Source: Mycolicibacterium arabiense
Lineage (GTDB): Bacteria > Actinomycetota > Actinomycetes > Mycobacteriales > Mycobacteriaceae
Assembly (NCBI RefSeq): GCF_010731815.2
Contig: NZ_AP022593.1
Location: forward strand, 5,642,001 to 5,706,000
Direction of reading: 5' to 3'
Length of the DNA: 64,000 nucleotides
The first letter of the stretch is position 1; the number at the start of each line of letters is the position of its first letter. The notes beneath the pieces are model-generated. The model saw only the letters and a program-made list of their open reading frames with translations. It was not told where the DNA came from and did not search any database. Both the position numbers and the translations under genes were made by a program. Shown one piece after another: positions 42,991-49,544 of this stretch.

Positions 42991-43036
42991 GTGCTGAACG
43001 GAATTCTGCCCTCACCGACTGAAGGGAACGCACGCC

Positions 43037-43657
43037 ATGGCTGACAAGTCCGGGAAAAGAGATGAAGCCGGTTTCTGGTTCGATCCGCTGTGCCCGTGGT
43101 GCTGGATCACCTCGCGCTGGATCCTGGAGGTCGAGAAGGTCCGCGACATCGACGTGCAGTGGCACGTGATGAGCCTCGCGGTACTCAACGAGGGCCGTGA
43201 CCTGCCCGAGGAGTACCAGGAGATGATGAAGAAGGCGTGGGGCCCGGTGCGCGTCGCGATCGCCGCCGAGCAGGCTCACGGCAAGGACGTGCTCGCCCCG
43301 CTGTACACGGCGATGGGCACCCGGATCCACAACGAGGGCAACAAGGACTTCGACGACGTCATCAAGGGCGCGCTCGCCGACGCCGGTCTGCCGGCCGACC
43401 TCGCCAAGGCGGCCACCTCCGACGAGTACGACGAGGCGCTGCGCAAGAGCCACCACGCGGGCATGGACGCCGTCGGCGACGACGTGGGCACGCCCACCAT
43501 CCACGTCAACGGGGTCGCGTTCTTCGGGCCGGTGCTCTCGCGCATCCCGCGCGGCGAGGAGGCAGGCAAGCTGTGGGACGCCTCGGTGACCTTCGCGTCG
43601 TATCCCCACTTCTGGGAGCTGAAGCGCTCGCGTACCGAGTCGCCCGAGTTCGACTGA
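43037..43657 (+). CDS. Mycoredoxin-dependent DsbA-like oxidoreductase (Rv2466c-type)
   Basis: 206 residues, thioredoxin fold with helical insert. Active site CPWC at Cys19 and Cys22, as in Rv2466c; [18 protein letters not shown] near residue 155 contains the cis-Pro. This family is reduced by mycoredoxin/mycothiol, acts in the cytosol in oxidative stress, and in M. tuberculosis activates thienopyrimidine prodrugs. AAGGGAACG precedes the ATG, and a SigH-type promoter lies ~45 bases upstream, both consistent with stress induction. Divergent from pepN. Confidence 0.93.
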
Positions 43658-43667
43658 CGCGGGCCGG

Positions 43668-45230
43668 CTACTCGACGGTGAACACGATCGAGTGCCAGCC
43701 CGTGGAGCCGTCGGGGACCGGCCCGGGGTTGATCAACCGGAGCCGGTCCTCGGCCTGCATCTGACCGTCGCCGTCGAACGCGCGGCACGTCACGGTGTGC
43801 TGACCGGCCGGCAGCGCCGTCGTCAGCCGGAACATCCGCCACGTGTTGGGGTTGACCTCGGTGGCCAATTCGGCGGCCTGCCACGGGCCCTTGTCGAGGC
43901 GTAGCTCGACGCGGCTGATGCCCCGGCCCTGCGCCCACGCGGTGCCGGCGATCGTGACGTCCCCGCCGGGCAGCCGCTGGAACGACGTCGGTGCGTCGAC
44001 GCGGGACGAGATCTTGATCGGGACGATGCCGGGCGGTTGGCCGTCCCATCCGCGTTCCACCCAGTAGGGCTTGACGTCGTAGGTGGCGAGTTCGAGTTCG
44101 GTGACCCACTTCGTCGCCGAGACGTAGCCGTACAACCCGGGGACGACGGTGCGCATCGGGAAGCCGTGCTCGGGCAGCAGGGCCTCGCGGTTCATGCCGA
44201 TGGCCAGCAGGGCATCGTCGCCCGCGGCGCGCAGCATGTCCAGTGGCGTGCCGAGGGTGAACCCGTCGACCGCGTGGCCGACCAGTTGCTGCGCACCGCC
44301 GCGGATCCCGGCGCGTTCGAGCAGTTCCAGCAGTGGCACGCCGATGAAGTTGGCGGTCGAGACGTACGGTCCGCCAACCTCGTTCGACACGCACGTCATC
44401 GTGATCGTCTTCTCGACGAGCGTCATGTTCCGGATGTCGTCGAAGCTGAGTTCGAGCGGCTCGTCGACCATGCCGGTGATGCGCAGGGTGGCGTCCTCGG
44501 CGCGCAGTTGCGGGACCGCCAGGTTGACGTCGATGCGGTAGAAGTCCGCGACCGGCGTGAGGAACGTCGGGGTCCCGAGTTCGGGGAACGCCGCGTCCGC
44601 CGGGATCGGCGGGGCCGGTGTGGTGGGCACCAATTCGCCGACGCCGCGGCGTGACTCCGCGACGTCGATGCGGCGGGCCGACGCGAAGCCGCCCGCGCCC
44701 GCCAGCAGCGCTCCCACCGAGGTGGCGGCGGCACCGATGACGAAGCCCCGCCGACCCACGCCGCCCTGTGGTGTCTCCGCGGCCGGGCGGGCGCGGCGGT
44801 GCAGCCACCAGAACACCGCGAGCCCGGCGACCATCGAGCCGAGCGGCGCCAGCAGTCCGAGGCGGCCCGACGACTGTTCGTTCACCGCCAGTGCGCCGAC
44901 GATCCCGAGGACAACGACGGCGACGACCCCCGGCCACACAGTGCGACGCGACGCCAGCCCGATCAGCAGGCCGGCCAGGACGAGGACCACCGCCATGCCG
45001 ACCAGCAGGGCCGGTTTGTCGTTGGTGCCGAACGTGGAGATCGCGAAGTCCTTCACCGGCGCCGGGGTGCGGTCGATGAACGCGTTGCCGACCGCCAGGA
45101 ACGGCGAAGCGGCGGGAAGCAGCAGCAGTCCGGCCACCAGATGCCCGACGCCCAGCGCCGCCAATATGGCGACGAGCCCGGTCGTCGCGGCGCGGACGGC
45201 GGACAGGTGCGGCGTCGTCATGACACTCAT
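43668..45230 (-). CDS. Membrane-anchored molybdopterin oxidoreductase (SuoX/YedY-like)
   Basis: About 520 residues. The N-terminal ~185 residues hold four to five hydrophobic helices, ending in RRGFVIGAAATSVGALLAGAGG, reminiscent of a Tat-like RR sequence. The rest is a sulfite-oxidase-type Mo-MPT domain with TITMTCVSNEVGGPY, whose Cys280 should bind Mo, VGHAVDGFTLGTPLDML, and LPEHGFPMRTVVPGLYGY, followed by a dimerisation domain (VTIAGTAWAQGRGISRVEL). Electron partner and substrate are unknown. ATG 45230 or 45221 are alternative starts. Opposite in direction to its neighbours on both sides. Confidence 0.85.
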   Translation of the reverse strand: MSVMTTPHLSAVRAATTGLVAILAALGVGHLVAGLLLLPAASPFLAVGNAFIDRTPAPVKDFAISTFGTNDKPALLVGMAVVLVLAGLLIGLASRRTVWPGVVAVVVLGIVGALAVNEQSSGRLGLLAPLGSMVAGLAVFWWLHRRARPAAETPQGGVGRRGFVIGAAATSVGALLAGAGGFASARRIDVAESRRGVGELVPTTPAPPIPADAAFPELGTPTFLTPVADFYRIDVNLAVPQLRAEDATLRITGMVDEPLELSFDDIRNMTLVEKTITMTCVSNEVGGPYVSTANFIGVPLLELLERAGIRGGAQQLVGHAVDGFTLGTPLDMLRAAGDDALLAIGMNREALLPEHGFPMRTVVPGLYGYVSATKWVTELELATYDVKPYWVERGWDGQPPGIVPIKISSRVDAPTSFQRLPGGDVTIAGTAWAQGRGISRVELRLDKGPWQAAELATEVNPNTWRMFRLTTALPAGQHTVTCRAFDGDGQMQAEDRLRLINPGPVPDGSTGWHSIVFTVE

Positions 45231-45328
45231 TCGGCGCGGGTGACGGTCGGGATGGCACGGCGATGTGACCAAAACCTGACGCGGCGTGAGCCGCTCCGGT
45301 TGCGAGCGGCGGCGACTGGGTGAACGGT

Positions 45329-46741
45329 ATGCGAATGGCAGTCGCTGAGCCCACCACCGATGGCACCTATCGCGACCGGATCGTCGCCGTCGAACCCGGC
45401 GGGAACGAGTTCATCGCCGAAGCAGACCGGCACGGCAAGCCGCGCCAACTGTTCTGGACCTGGACGTCACCGAACCTCGAGTTCGCGACGATCTTCGTGG
45501 GCATGCTCGCGGTGCTCGCCTTCGGAATGACGTTCTGGCAGGCGGTCGCTGGGATCGTGATCGGCACGGGGCTCGGCGCCGCCGCGCACTACTTCCTGTC
45601 CGCGCGCGGTCCGCTGCACGGGGTGCCGCAGATGGTGCTGGGCCGCATGGCCTTCGGCTTCCGGGGCAACGCCGTGCCGTCGGTGCTGATGTCGATCACT
45701 GCCGGTGTGGGCTGGTTTGCCACCAACAGCGTCAGCGGCGCGTTCGCGCTCTCGACGTTGTTCGGCATCGGCCCGTTGGTCGCACTCATCGTGATCGTGC
45801 TGCTGCAAACGGGTTTCGCGTTCTTCGGTCACAACCTGGTGCAGGCCTTCGAGCGGTGGTCGTTCCCGTTCCTGGCGGTCATCTTCGTCGTCGCGTCGGT
45901 GGCGATCTTCGCCCACGCCGACTTCACCACGCCCGTGGCGGCCGAAGGCGTCGGCGGTATGGGCGGCTTCCTGCTCACCGTGGGGACGTCGTTCGGGTAT
46001 GCCGCAGGCTGGACGCCGTACGCGGCCGACTACACCAGGTACCTGCCGTCGACGGTGTCCACCGCGCGCACCGGATTGTTCGCGTCGTCGGGCCTGTTCC
46101 TGTCCTGCGTGGTGCTCGAGGTCGTCGGCGCGGCATCGGTGACCACCGGCGAGGCGTCGCTGGCCGATCCCACCGGTTCGTTCACCTCCGAGCTGGCCTC
46201 ACCGCTGGCCAACGCAACGCTGCTGGCGATCGCCGTGGGCGCCATCGCCGCGAACTCGATCAACATCTATTCCGGCGCAATGGCTTTCGTGACGATCGGG
46301 ATCAAGTTGCCCGCGCACATCGCCCGGGCACTGGTGACCGTGTTCTTCGGAGTGGCCGGCTTCCTGGTGGCGTGGTGGGCGCTGCCCGACGCCGCGCACA
46401 GCTACGAGGCGTTCCTGCTCATCATCGCCTACTGGATCGGGCCGTGGCTGGGCGTGGTGTTCGCCGACCAGTACCTGCGCCGCAACCAACCGATCGCGGA
46501 GTTCCTCTACGACCGCTCGTACACGAACTGGAACGGCCTGCTGTCCTTCGTCATCGGCCTCGTCGCGTCGGTGCTGCTATTCGCCAATCAGGAGAAGCTG
46601 GTCGGCCTGGTCACCCGGGCGGTGCCCCAACTGGGCGACGTCACGTTCTTCGTGGGCTTCCTGTTGGCGGGCGGCTGCTACCTACTGCTGTGCAAGTCGA
46701 AGATCGCCAGGGAACGCGACGCGGCGCCGGTGACGCGGTGA
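45329..46741 (+). CDS. NCS1-family cytosine/purine permease
   Basis: About 470 residues with 12 predicted membrane helices. The NCS1 signature is visible in LFWTWTSPNLEFATIFVGML, FGMTFWQAVAGIVIGTGLGA and LHGVPQMVLGRMAFGFRGNAVPS; later SFGYAAGWTPYAADYTRYLP and IYSGAMAFVTIGIKLP. It imports cytosine, purines or related bases with a cation. Start is ATG 45329 or 45335; a GTG at 45320 is also in frame. Its stop overlaps the deaminase GTG (GTGA), so the two are coupled and the substrate is probably a cytosine-type base. Confidence 0.88.
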   Translation: MRMAVAEPTTDGTYRDRIVAVEPGGNEFIAEADRHGKPRQLFWTWTSPNLEFATIFVGMLAVLAFGMTFWQAVAGIVIGTGLGAAAHYFLSARGPLHGVPQMVLGRMAFGFRGNAVPSVLMSITAGVGWFATNSVSGAFALSTLFGIGPLVALIVIVLLQTGFAFFGHNLVQAFERWSFPFLAVIFVVASVAIFAHADFTTPVAAEGVGGMGGFLLTVGTSFGYAAGWTPYAADYTRYLPSTVSTARTGLFASSGLFLSCVVLEVVGAASVTTGEASLADPTGSFTSELASPLANATLLAIAVGAIAANSINIYSGAMAFVTIGIKLPAHIARALVTVFFGVAGFLVAWWALPDAAHSYEAFLLIIAYWIGPWLGVVFADQYLRRNQPIAEFLYDRSYTNWNGLLSFVIGLVASVLLFANQEKLVGLVTRAVPQLGDVTFFVGFLLAGGCYLLLCKSKIARERDAAPVTR

Positions 46742-47178
46742 CACCGGAGCAGATGCTCGACGTCGCCGTCGAGGAGGCACGGCAGGGCCTGGCGGAGGGC
46801 GGGATCCCGATCGGGGCGGCGCTGTTCTCCGCCGACGGCACGGTGCTCGGCCGCGGCCACAACAGGCGCGTGCAGCAGGACGACCCGTCGGTGCACGCCG
46901 AGACGGACGCGTTCCGCGCCGCGGGCAGACAACGCAACTACCGCTCCACCGTGATGGTCACGACGCTGTCGCCGTGCTGGTACTGCAGCGGGCTGGTGCG
47001 GCAGTTCAACATTGGCGCGCTGATCGTGGGGGAGTCGACGACCTTCCACGGCGGACACGACTGGCTCGCCGAGCACGGCGTATCGGTCACGGTGCTCGAC
47101 GACGAGCGGTGCGTGGAGATGATGACCGACTTCATCGCCGCGCGCCCCGATCTGTGGGCGGAGGACATCGGTGAGTGA
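46738..47178 (+). CDS. Yeast-type cytosine deaminase (FCY1-like)
   Basis: 146 residues. Zinc ligands His53 in HAE with catalytic Glu55, and Cys80/Cys83 in SPCWYC. It resembles fungal cytosine deaminase along its length: GGIPIGAALFSADGTVLGRGHN near the start and DERCVEMMTDFIAARPDLWAEDIGE at the C terminus, unlike E. coli CodA (amidohydrolase fold). Fungal enzymes of this type convert cytosine to uracil and also 5-methylcytosine to thymine. GTG start overlaps the permease stop; the oxygenase gene follows after 9 bases. Confidence 0.88.
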   Translation: MTPEQMLDVAVEEARQGLAEGGIPIGAALFSADGTVLGRGHNRRVQQDDPSVHAETDAFRAAGRQRNYRSTVMVTTLSPCWYCSGLVRQFNIGALIVGESTTFHGGHDWLAEHGVSVTVLDDERCVEMMTDFIAARPDLWAEDIGE

Positions 47179-47187
47179 GGTGAACGG

Positions 47188-48147
47188 ATGAGTGCGATTG
47201 CGACCATCGACCTGTCGCGCTGGCGCGCCGGCGGTGCCGACGCCGATGCGGTGGCTGACGAGGTGGACGCCGGGCTGCAGCGGGCGGGGTTCATCCTCGT
47301 CACCGGCCACGGCGTCGACCCGGGCCTGACGGCGGCGGTGCGGGCGGCCAGCCGCTCGTTCTTCGCCCAACCCGAGCACGTCAAGGCGCGCTATTCGGTG
47401 CCGGTCGGCGGTCACGGATGGATCGGGCCCGGCGCCGAGGCCAACGGCTACGCCGAGGGAACCGAGACGCCACCGGACCTCAAGGAGAGTTTCAGCCTCG
47501 GCGCCGAGACGGCTACCGGCGACCCGGACGTCGACCGAATCTGGTTCGCGCCCAACGCATGGCCTGTGGAGGTGCCGTCGCTGCAGCCGCTGGTCGACGA
47601 GTACACCGCGGCCATGCGCAGGGTCTCCGACGAATTGCTCGCCCTCTTCTCCCACGCCCTCGGGTTGCCCGACAATCCGTGGCTGGCGTTGGCGGATCAG
47701 CCGACGTGGACGATGAACATCAACCACTACCCGCCCGTGAGCGTGGTCGGCCAACCCGAGCCCGGCCAGTTCCGCATCGGGCCGCACACCGACTTCGGAA
47801 CGGTGACCGTACTCGATCGCGAGCCGGGAGCCGGTGGGCTGCAGGTGTTCTCCGACGACGGCGGCTGGGCCGACGCACCGTACGACCCCGCGGCGCTCAC
47901 CGTGAACATCGGCGACCTGCTCGAGTACTGGAGTGGCAGGCGGTGGCCCTCGGGTCGCCACCGGGTGCTGCCGCCGCAACCGGAGGCGCCGGAGGAGGAC
48001 CTGGTGTCGCTCATCTACTTCTACGAGGCCAACCACGACGCGCTGGTCCGCCCGCTCGATCCGCCGGTCGGCCGCGTCGCCGGGCTCGATCCAGTCACGT
48101 CGGCGGACTTCATCAAGGAACGGCTCGACGCCATCACGGTGGGATAA
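47188..48147 (+). CDS. 2-oxoglutarate/Fe(II)-dependent oxygenase, isopenicillin-N-synthase family
   Basis: 319 residues. DIOX_N domain at the start (ATIDLSRWRAGG, GFILVTGHGVDPGL) and the 2OG-FeII domain with iron ligands His200 and Asp202 in HTDFGTVTVLD and His258 in SGRHRVLPP. The family includes fungal thymine-7-hydroxylase as well as secondary-metabolite oxygenases. Being third in an operon with a cytosine-type permease and cytosine deaminase, oxidation of a pyrimidine base is a reasonable inference. GTGAGGTGAACG is the ribosome site before ATG 47188. Confidence 0.85.
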   Translation: MSAIATIDLSRWRAGGADADAVADEVDAGLQRAGFILVTGHGVDPGLTAAVRAASRSFFAQPEHVKARYSVPVGGHGWIGPGAEANGYAEGTETPPDLKESFSLGAETATGDPDVDRIWFAPNAWPVEVPSLQPLVDEYTAAMRRVSDELLALFSHALGLPDNPWLALADQPTWTMNINHYPPVSVVGQPEPGQFRIGPHTDFGTVTVLDREPGAGGLQVFSDDGGWADAPYDPAALTVNIGDLLEYWSGRRWPSGRHRVLPPQPEAPEEDLVSLIYFYEANHDALVRPLDPPVGRVAGLDPVTSADFIKERLDAITVG

Positions 48148-48183
48148 CCGCTGCGTGCGGGACCGTCCGGACGCTCTGCCACA

Positions 48184-48672
48184 ATGGCGGTCATGCGCGT
48201 CTACCTCGGCGGCGACCACGCCGGATTCGAACTCAAGCAGGCGATCCTCGAGCACCTGTCGGCGAGCGGCCACGAGCCGATCGACTGCGGTGCCTTCGCC
48301 TACGACGCGCAGGACGACTATCCCGCGTTCTGCATCGCCGCCGCGGAGAAGACCGTGGCCGATCCCGGCAGCCTGGGCATCGTGCTCGGCGGCTCGGGCA
48401 ATGGCGAGCAGATCGCCGCCAACAAGGTGCCCGGCGCACGGTGCGCGCTGGCGTGGAGCGTCGAGACCGCTCAGCTCGCCCGCCAGCACAACAACGCCCA
48501 GCTGATCGGCATCGGTGGCCGCATGCACACGGTCGAGGAAGCGCTCGCCATCGTCGACGCGTTCCTCGCCGCGGCGTGGTCGGAGGAGCCGCGGCATCAG
48601 CGCCGCATCGACATCCTGGCCGAATACGAGACGTCGCACGTCGCACCCCCGGTGCCCGGCGTCTCCGCCTGA
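48184..48672 (+). CDS. rpiB: Ribose-5-phosphate isomerase B
   Basis: 162 residues, same as Rv2465c. MRVYLGGDHAGFELK, CGAFAYDAQDDYPAF, and GGSGNGEQIAANKVPG, in which Glu75 is the catalytic base used in mycobacteria in place of the Cys of E. coli RpiB. It interconverts ribose-5-phosphate and ribulose-5-phosphate in the pentose phosphate pathway. ATG 48184 (MAVMRVYL) is chosen over 48193 because it matches the MSGMRVYL start of the orthologue. The nei gene follows after 3 bases, giving an operon. Confidence 0.95.
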   Translation: MAVMRVYLGGDHAGFELKQAILEHLSASGHEPIDCGAFAYDAQDDYPAFCIAAAEKTVADPGSLGIVLGGSGNGEQIAANKVPGARCALAWSVETAQLARQHNNAQLIGIGGRMHTVEEALAIVDAFLAAAWSEEPRHQRRIDILAEYETSHVAPPVPGVSA

Positions 48673-48675
48673 CCC

Positions 48676-49470
48676 ATGCCCGAGGGCCACACGCTGCACC
48701 GGCTGGCCCGGCTGCACCAGCAGAGATTCGCAGGCGCGCCCGTCGAGGTGTCCAGCCCGCAGGGCCGTTTCGCCGAGGGTGCCGCCGCAGTGAACGGGCG
48801 GGTGCTGCGCAAGGCGAGTGCCTGGGGCAAGCACCTGTTTCACGACTACGAGGGCGGCCTGATCGTCCACGTCCACCTCGGGCTGTACGGGAAGTTCACT
48901 GAGCGTCCCGTCCCGATGCCCGCACCGGTGGGCCAGGTGCGGATGCGCATGGTCGGTGCGGAGTACGGCACCGATTTGCGCGGGCCGACGGCGTGCGAGA
49001 TCCTGCACCGCGCCGAGGTCGACGAGATCATCGCCCGGCTCGGCCCCGACCCGTTGCGCCGCAACCCCGACGCGGCGAAGGCGTGGACGCGAATCAGCAA
49101 GTCTCGCCGACCCATCGGTGCGCTGCTGATGGATCAGTCGGTGATCGCGGGCGTCGGCAACGTGTACCGCAACGAGCTGCTGTACCGCCATCTCATCGAC
49201 CCGCACCGGCCCGGCACCCACATCGGCGAAGACGAGTTCGACGCCGCGTGGACCGACCTGGTCAAGTTGATGAAGGTCGGCGTCAGCCGCGGCAAGATCA
49301 TCACGATCCGCAAGGCCGACGACAAGGGGCAGCCGTCGTACCGGCCCGGGCGTCCGCGGTCGTACGTCTACCGGCGTGCCGGCGACGCGTGCCGCGTCTG
49401 CGGGGACACCATCCGCACCGAGGTGATGGAGGGCCGCAACCTGTTCTGGTGTCCCACCTGTCAGGTGTGA
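48676..49470 (+). CDS. nei: Fpg/Nei-family DNA glycosylase (Nei1)
   Basis: 264 residues. After Met removal the protein begins PEGHTLHR, giving the catalytic Pro and Glu of endonuclease VIII. The helix-two-turn-helix has SVIAGVGNVYRNELLYR; the zinc finger ends CRVCGDTIRTEVMEGRNLFWCPTCQ. It excises oxidised pyrimidines in base-excision repair; orthologue of Rv2464c next to rpiB. The start is fixed by the catalytic Pro2. A foldback hairpin follows the gene. Confidence 0.95.
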   Translation: MPEGHTLHRLARLHQQRFAGAPVEVSSPQGRFAEGAAAVNGRVLRKASAWGKHLFHDYEGGLIVHVHLGLYGKFTERPVPMPAPVGQVRMRMVGAEYGTDLRGPTACEILHRAEVDEIIARLGPDPLRRNPDAAKAWTRISKSRRPIGALLMDQSVIAGVGNVYRNELLYRHLIDPHRPGTHIGEDEFDAAWTDLVKLMKVGVSRGKIITIRKADDKGQPSYRPGRPRSYVYRRAGDACRVCGDTIRTEVMEGRNLFWCPTCQV

Positions 49471-49488
49471 GCCCAACGGACCCCTCGC

Positions 49489-49544
49489 CGAGACTGCTGT
49501 GAGGGCGTGATCCGAGGCTCAAACGCGATCTGGCAGCAGTCTCG
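49489..49544 (+). repeat. 56-base foldback hairpin after nei
   Basis: CGAGACTGCTG (49489-49499) and CAGCAGTCTCG (49534-49544) pair perfectly over 11 bp with a 34-base loop. It lies 18 bases after the nei stop and 38 bases before the antiporter gene. May be a terminator or a mobile foldback element. Confidence 0.65.

Follow-up and report, generated by a model that had tools for sequence, protein, structure and literature searches.

The window, a 64,000-nucleotide stretch of the 6.45 Mb genome of Mycolicibacterium arabiense (contig NZ_AP022593.1, positions 5,642,001 to 5,706,000), encodes an NCS1-type base permease, a Fcy1-type cytosine deaminase and a DIOX/IPNS-like Fe(II) oxygenase in three coupled genes on its forward strand. 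An earlier note on this DNA had described the three genes as an operon, and the coordinates bear this out within 45320-48147: the permease and deaminase genes overlap by GTGA (46738-46741), with the GTG start of the deaminase inside the overlap, and a spacer of 9 bases (47179-47187) separates the deaminase from the oxygenase. The cassette is real and conserved, and its general kind (base import and deamination) is known; the new part, as read from sequence comparison, is an oxygenase clade with an apparently rebuilt cosubstrate site. The genes and key residues are:

45320 (GTG) or 45329 (ATG, the alternative start, as in the earlier note) to 46741, + strand: NCS1-type base permease gene (Pfam PF02133)
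46738..47178, + strand: gene for the 146-aa cytosine deaminase of Fcy1 type (yeast cytosine deaminase leads the solved relatives, 9.7e-34)
46894..46902, + strand: deaminase H53-A54-E55, zinc His and catalytic Glu, aligning to yeast H62-G63-E64
46975..46986, + strand: deaminase C80-W-Y-C83, zinc cysteines aligning to yeast C91 and C94
47188..48147, + strand: gene for the 319-aa DIOX/IPNS-like Fe(II) oxygenase of the Asp-Arg (DR)/Leu272 clade (Pfam matches and a predicted model with pLDDT 92.7)
47716..47718, + strand: oxygenase Asn177 at the position of Arg190 in thymine-7-hydroxylase (T7H), found in 55/55 deaminase-linked oxygenases
47785..47793, + strand: iron ligands His200-Thr-Asp202, with His and Asp in 55/55 deaminase-linked oxygenases
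47815..47820, + strand: Asp210-Arg211, closing the strand that follows HxD and proposed as a relocated 2-oxoglutarate (2OG) anchor, in 100/100 Leu272 and 0/25 Arg272 sequences
47959..47961, + strand: iron ligand His258, in 54/54 sequences reaching the site (L060 is cut)
48001..48003, + strand: Leu272 where the RxS motif has its 2OG-binding Arg (T7H Arg286), in 54/54 sequences reaching the site and 100/100 DR sequences

The linkage recurs in other genomes, a check that the earlier note had proposed. Among the best 80 of 575 confirmed deaminase loci, a set biased to close relatives, deaminase and oxygenase occur together in 55, in the order permease-deaminase-oxygenase (46), deaminase-oxygenase (7) or oxygenase-deaminase (2); the other 25 have no oxygenase, and a permease was matched in five of these (L065, L066, L071, L079, and L083). 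In a sample of 298 genomes of the order, the window's own included, 53 match the oxygenase at E <= 1e-40, and 31 have a trio-type oxygenase, defined as full length with at least 54% identity (G005, with a 56% identical oxygenase cut by a contig end, is left out). The deaminase gene is adjacent in 27 of the 31 genomes (cut by a contig end in G165) and located elsewhere in four (G235, G087, G003, and G111); it is thus present in 31/31 trio-type genomes versus 91/267 others, counts that take genomes as sampled, kinship included. All 30 trio-type loci outside the window keep one strand, with an order that varies: permease-deaminase-oxygenase (12), deaminase-oxygenase-permease (8), deaminase-oxygenase (5), permease-oxygenase-deaminase (1), permease-oxygenase (2), and oxygenase alone (2). 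The flanks are mostly the Rv2466c-like and rpiB-nei genes in Mycolicibacterium, an apparent rpoA-rplQ-truA run (read from translations) ahead of the trio in Pseudonocardia, and DUF3152/ThiF and UvrD-type genes in L015, with homologous neighbors in L023. Mere inherited synteny is rejected as the cause of the linkage because flanks and gene order differ among lineages. Pfam scans of selected neighbors gave no consistent fourth partner. In a sample of the phylum, an oxygenase relative at E <= 1e-45 occurs in 9 of 396 genomes, and the deaminase adjoins it in three of the four members of a further genus (g78). No description of the trio was recognized in the opening lines of abstracts in the open-licence literature.

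The permease and the deaminase are of the types that the earlier note had named. The permease matches PF02133 (E 1.6e-37, 129.8 bits against a cut-off of 23.5) and scores 117.6 bits with the NCBIfam model TIGR00800 (ncs1), whose cut-off is 353.1; a search for solved relatives by sequence returned none at E 0.001. The deaminase matches PF00383 (3.6e-18), contains the HAE and SPCWYC motifs and a Fcy1-like C terminus, and scores 120 bits with yeast cytosine deaminase versus 52 bits with the best tRNA adenosine deaminase, the next group. The residues H53, E55, C80, and C83 are identical in 84/84 oxygenase-linked rows (one locus counted twice, as L098 and L146) and in 25/25 rows without a linked oxygenase (some on short contigs such as L050 and L051, where the oxygenase may be cut off), and N42, F103, W140, and D143 are kept in all of these rows. 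We take their yeast equivalents to be zinc or catalytic residues (H62, E64, C91, and C94) and contact residues (N51, F114, W152, and D155), and by these positions the protein classes as a Fcy1-type deaminase with predicted cytosine activity. At two yeast positions the bacterial deaminases differ, linked and unlinked alike: Gly63 is replaced mostly by Ala, and Asp92 by Trp. This deaminase type is widespread (122/298 genomes of the order sample at E <= 1e-30, in 44/76 genera), and the closest named match among the best 80 of 575 loci is 97% identical, in Mycolicibacterium lacusdiani. A deaminase specialized for the oxygenase is rejected, as no pocket residue separates the 84 linked from the 25 unlinked rows. 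The pocket hardly differs whether or not the oxygenase is present, so that the latter seems to be an add-on at the front or the back end.

The oxygenase is DIOX/IPNS-like, as claimed by the earlier note, with an intact His200-x-Asp202...His258 triad, matches to DIOX_N (1.2e-19) and 2OG-FeII_Oxy (1.4e-17), and a predicted fold of the DIOX type. No NCBIfam model matches any of 39 oxygenases. The same note had likened it to fungal T7H, which, in the parts of its structural description drawn on here (PMC4787775), binds iron through His214, Asp216, and His271 and the C5 carboxylate of 2OG through Arg286, Ser288, and Tyr194. Its essential Arg190 contacts the C1 carboxylate of 2OG and the substrate, and the base is surrounded by Phe292, Tyr217, Asn87, Glu122, and Asn294; activity drops drastically or disappears when Arg190 or Phe292 is changed, the effects of N87A and E122A with thymine are mild, and N294A has none (PMC4787775). 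By alignment, the iron ligands correspond to His200, Asp202, and His258, and the aromatic Phe292 and Tyr217 to Phe278 and Phe203. Of the C5-carboxylate contacts, Ser288 and Tyr194 are kept as Ser274 and Tyr181, and Arg286 is Leu272. The polar Asn87, Glu122, and Asn294 correspond to Gly75, Ser103, and Glu280, with a second alignment placing an Ala of T7H, not Asn87, in column 75; Glu occupies position 280 in 94/100 DR rows. In a tree made by a quick method with one partial T7H chain, T7H is not part of the 42-row clade (SH-aLRT 100), and its branch length of 1.95 calls for long-branch caution. The fold is close to T7H, but with Arg190 replaced by Asn177, the RxS Arg by Leu272 and other polar contacts changed, a thymine-7-hydroxylase is unsupported.

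The missing RxS Arg, a feature absent from the earlier note, goes together with the Asp210-Arg211 pair. Among 125 distinct sequences (121 bacterial, the window's included, and four stretches of solved chains; oxygenase matches of at least 100 bits and more than 250 aa, with the own-genome paralogue L086 left out), 100 have DR with Leu272 and 25 have Arg272 without DR, with zero exceptions. In a separate alignment, L086 has Arg272 and Lys177; it is one of two distant paralogues in the genome (L085 and L086), both with an intact RxS Arg. The DR rows keep Ser274 (100/100) and Tyr181 (97/100) and form one branch (SH-aLRT 100), which probably reflects a single evolutionary event. In the predicted model, residue 210 ends strand 206-210 and residue 272 begins strand 272-279. 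In a drifted subgroup (L124-L129, genus g32), residues 177, 179, 203, 278, and 280 vary or differ and Arg211 and Leu272 stay; Arg211 may thus be read as a cosubstrate anchor, kept despite a drifted substrate pocket. We infer that the 2OG anchor relocated from the RxS Arg to Arg211. Known anchors of the C5 carboxylate otherwise sit on other strands, and we know of no characterized 2OG oxygenase with an anchoring Arg on the strand after HxD. According to excerpts of published work, the C5 carboxylate is normally held by Lys or Arg in 2OG oxygenases (PMC4543633), and the RxS Arg of DAOCS is a critical 2OG contact, with R258Q severely reducing activity (PMC6097109).

Some members of the DR clade occur in other surroundings. 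In L124-L129, Phe278 is lost and no deaminase is linked, and the vicinity of L124 has genes for an AlkZ-like DNA glycosylase and an aldo-keto reductase. In another class of the same phylum (L187, genome G406), the neighbors of a DR/Leu272 oxygenase with 46% identity include PhyH-type oxygenases, a Rieske oxygenase and a SnoaL-like open reading frame, a context suggesting that the clade is also put to another use.

A related oxygenase that keeps the RxS Arg is found with a different deaminase. L140 (4892-8279, - strand) has an overlapping gene run that encodes an NCS1 permease, a PF00962 deaminase and a relative of the Arg272 type (35% identical). The best solved relatives of this deaminase are 3rys, 4gxw, and 3ou8, of which 3rys and 3ou8 are presumably adenine deaminases, and the partner of the RxS-keeping branch is probably a deaminase for adenine. 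A relative of this type occurs in 43/298 genomes of the order sample at E <= 1e-70, and loci were read at 30 of 44 places, 1.5 kb each side. Arg177, Arg272, and Asp280 are present in 30/30 of these loci, and an adenine-deaminase-like gene adjoins the oxygenase in 9/30, always on the same strand, with an NCS1 permease in two. Position 280 is acidic in both branches, and two genomes (G026 and G214) hold both cassettes. L195 likewise has a parallel cassette of overlapping or close genes for an NCS1 permease, an RxS-keeping oxygenase and an adenine-deaminase-like amidohydrolase.

The trio, with its conserved linkage and intact deaminase and iron sites, is very probably a functional cassette for a cytosine-type base. 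The permease would import the base, and the deaminase would convert cytosine to uracil and ammonia, the reaction of Fcy1-type enzymes. The oxygenase would be an accessory to the deaminase, because in the order sample every trio-type genome has the deaminase and many genomes have the deaminase alone, and it probably acts on the base itself. It would use Fe(II), O2, and most likely 2OG, held by Arg211 in place of the RxS Arg. Our leading guess, with a probability of roughly 0.35, is that the oxygenase dealkylates a modified cytosine at its exocyclic amine before deamination. With N4-methylcytosine as the best candidate, hydroxylation and loss of formaldehyde would yield cytosine, which the deaminase would convert to uracil. 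The two deaminase pairings and the unchanged deaminase pocket fit this order of steps. Moreover, adenine and cytosine share an exocyclic amine and not a C5 methyl group, so that C5-methyl hydroxylation would not be a common theme if the two branches share their chemistry. According to an earlier study, CodA of Escherichia coli does not convert N4-methylcytosine, and an upstream demethylase of unknown identity is proposed (PMC11898903). A bolder extension, to which we give noticeably less credence, is that actinobacteria have paralogous cassettes (permease, oxygenase and deaminase) for free-base dealkylation, in which the trio would serve N4-alkylcytosine, the related cassette N6-alkyladenine, and only the cytosine branch would have moved its 2OG anchor.

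Several points weigh against N-dealkylation and against Arg211 as the anchor. In all 10 genomes whose DR oxygenases are 41-49% identical (L120-L129), no deaminase lies beside the oxygenase, and four of these genomes (G253, G241, G236, and G225) lack one altogether at E <= 1e-30, so the DR clade as a whole is not tied to this deaminase. In the related branch, 21/30 loci have no adenine-deaminase-like gene within 1.5 kb, and the nine that do include the discovery locus (L189 is L140). As for the acidic residue at position 280, Asp280 is found in L130-L133 as well, without such a neighbor, and T7H with the equivalent N294A keeps activity (PMC4787775). Shared chemistry of the two branches is an assumption, and the trees give no settled joining of them. 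Since the tree has DR and Leu272 arising together a single time, the correlation of the two is no proof of compensation. T7H is described as contacting O4 of its substrate by a backbone NH (PMC4787775); with the pose retained, this would match a base that has already been deaminated. The substrate, finally, is something we infer from this context.

The O4-binding backbone NH of T7H, transferred by homology, fits ring oxidation after deamination, in which the oxygenase would hydroxylate uracil towards 5-hydroxyuracil or barbiturate and the related enzyme might hydroxylate hypoxanthine. Such a sequence fits both deaminase pairings as well, but we consider it unlikely, as T7H is stated not to bind uracil (PMC4787775); the barbiturase family is also unmatched in the genome, but a control search was equally without match. 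The route of the earlier note, in which imported 5-methylcytosine is deaminated to thymine and the C5 methyl group is oxidized in the manner of T7H towards 5-carboxyuracil and uracil, is given less weight than the dealkylation. Import and deamination of a cytosine-type base are part of the favored reading too, and the methyl oxidation is unsupported: the essential Arg190 and Arg286 are both replaced, as are Asn87, Glu122, and Asn294 (although such T7H mutants are described as mild on thymine), T7H is not inside the DR clade, and the related oxygenase branch is coupled to an adenine-type deaminase. No isoorotate-decarboxylase-like gene is linked among the matches listed for this genome and 34 others; PF04909 has 11 matches here, the nearest about 82 kb from the trio, and matches in 34/34 other genomes, the nearest among those listed about 22 kb from the trio genes. 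In M. smegmatis, in a strain not known to hold the trio, uracil but not thymine is described as supporting growth as a nitrogen source (PMC4222082). Least likely is an oxygenase without 2OG, compatible with any of the other explanations and drawing on another 2-oxo acid or, as in IPNS, taking all electrons from the substrate: the loss of both T7H-type carboxylate arginines, the activity loss of DAOCS R258Q and the usual Lys or Arg at the C5 carboxylate speak for it, and the retention of Arg211 in L124-L129, as expected of a cosubstrate anchor, and of Ser274 in all and Tyr181 in nearly all DR rows speaks against it.

The cassette resembles known systems in part. The yeast Fcy1/Fcy2 salvage system has the same deaminase type, with its zinc and contact residues, and a permease of the broad cytosine/purine family, but the trio genes are linked and include an Fe(II) oxygenase, and the bacterial deaminases differ at Gly63 and Asp92. 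E. coli codBA has the same apparent logic, a cytosine permease beside a cytosine deaminase; CodA is an unrelated amidohydrolase, however, and codBA lacks an oxygenase. Fungal T7H (PDB 5c3p-5c3s) shares the DIOX-type fold, HxD...H, the aromatic stacking residue and an aligned C-terminal helix, whereas the trio oxygenase has gained DR and lost the arginines and polar contacts described above. A reconstructed ancestor of the ethylene-forming enzyme (9ovh), 6jyv, TropC, TraH, and SpoC belong to the same DIOX subfamily by sequence and fold, but 9ovh, 6jyv, and TropC, the three compared, have the RxS Arg and no DR. The N-demethylases AlkB, FTO, and ALKBH5 share only the proposed chemistry (N-methyl hydroxylation and formaldehyde loss); they are a different branch of 2OG oxygenases and act on nucleic acids.

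Ahead of the permease, a GTNAC-N6-NNNAC site (GTGACCAAAACCTGAC, 45265-45280) occurs that is also found in M. lacusdiani (L010) and that, in our view, resembles a GlnR-type AC-N9-AC site. Control by GlnR is not claimed, as the site is present in only 7/55 upstream regions versus 2.8 expected from base shuffles and is not generally conserved. No Rfam RNA was found in 43000-49500 at gathering scores, and a PADLOC defense scan gave one weak partial match for the deaminase and none for the permease and oxygenase. Just upstream of the permease, a divergent gene (43668-45272, - strand) encodes a sulfite-dehydrogenase-like molybdopterin oxidoreductase, below curated cut-offs, which tblastn found in four of the best 80 of 575 deaminase loci (L010, L011, L014, and L040). 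The extra genes between the Rv2466c-like and rpiB-nei genes (43037-49470 in the window) differ among related species, here the trio and the molybdopterin oxidoreductase, and in L006 an apparent aldo-keto reductase and TetR pair (from reading); the interval behaves as if it were an insertion-prone site.

The gain of DR with the loss of the RxS Arg would show a rewiring of cosubstrate anchoring within one oxygenase subfamily. Modified bases from DNA and RNA turnover need recycling, and the demethylation of N4-methylcytosine is stated to be unknown in an excerpted account (PMC11898903). If the proposed dealkylation is true, the trio oxygenase would become a candidate for the demethylase that base salvage is missing for N4-methylcytosine. 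More broadly, the recurrent genetic tie between this oxygenase and a cytosine deaminase makes the enzyme a directly testable candidate for N4-methylcytosine demethylation or another missing salvage step.

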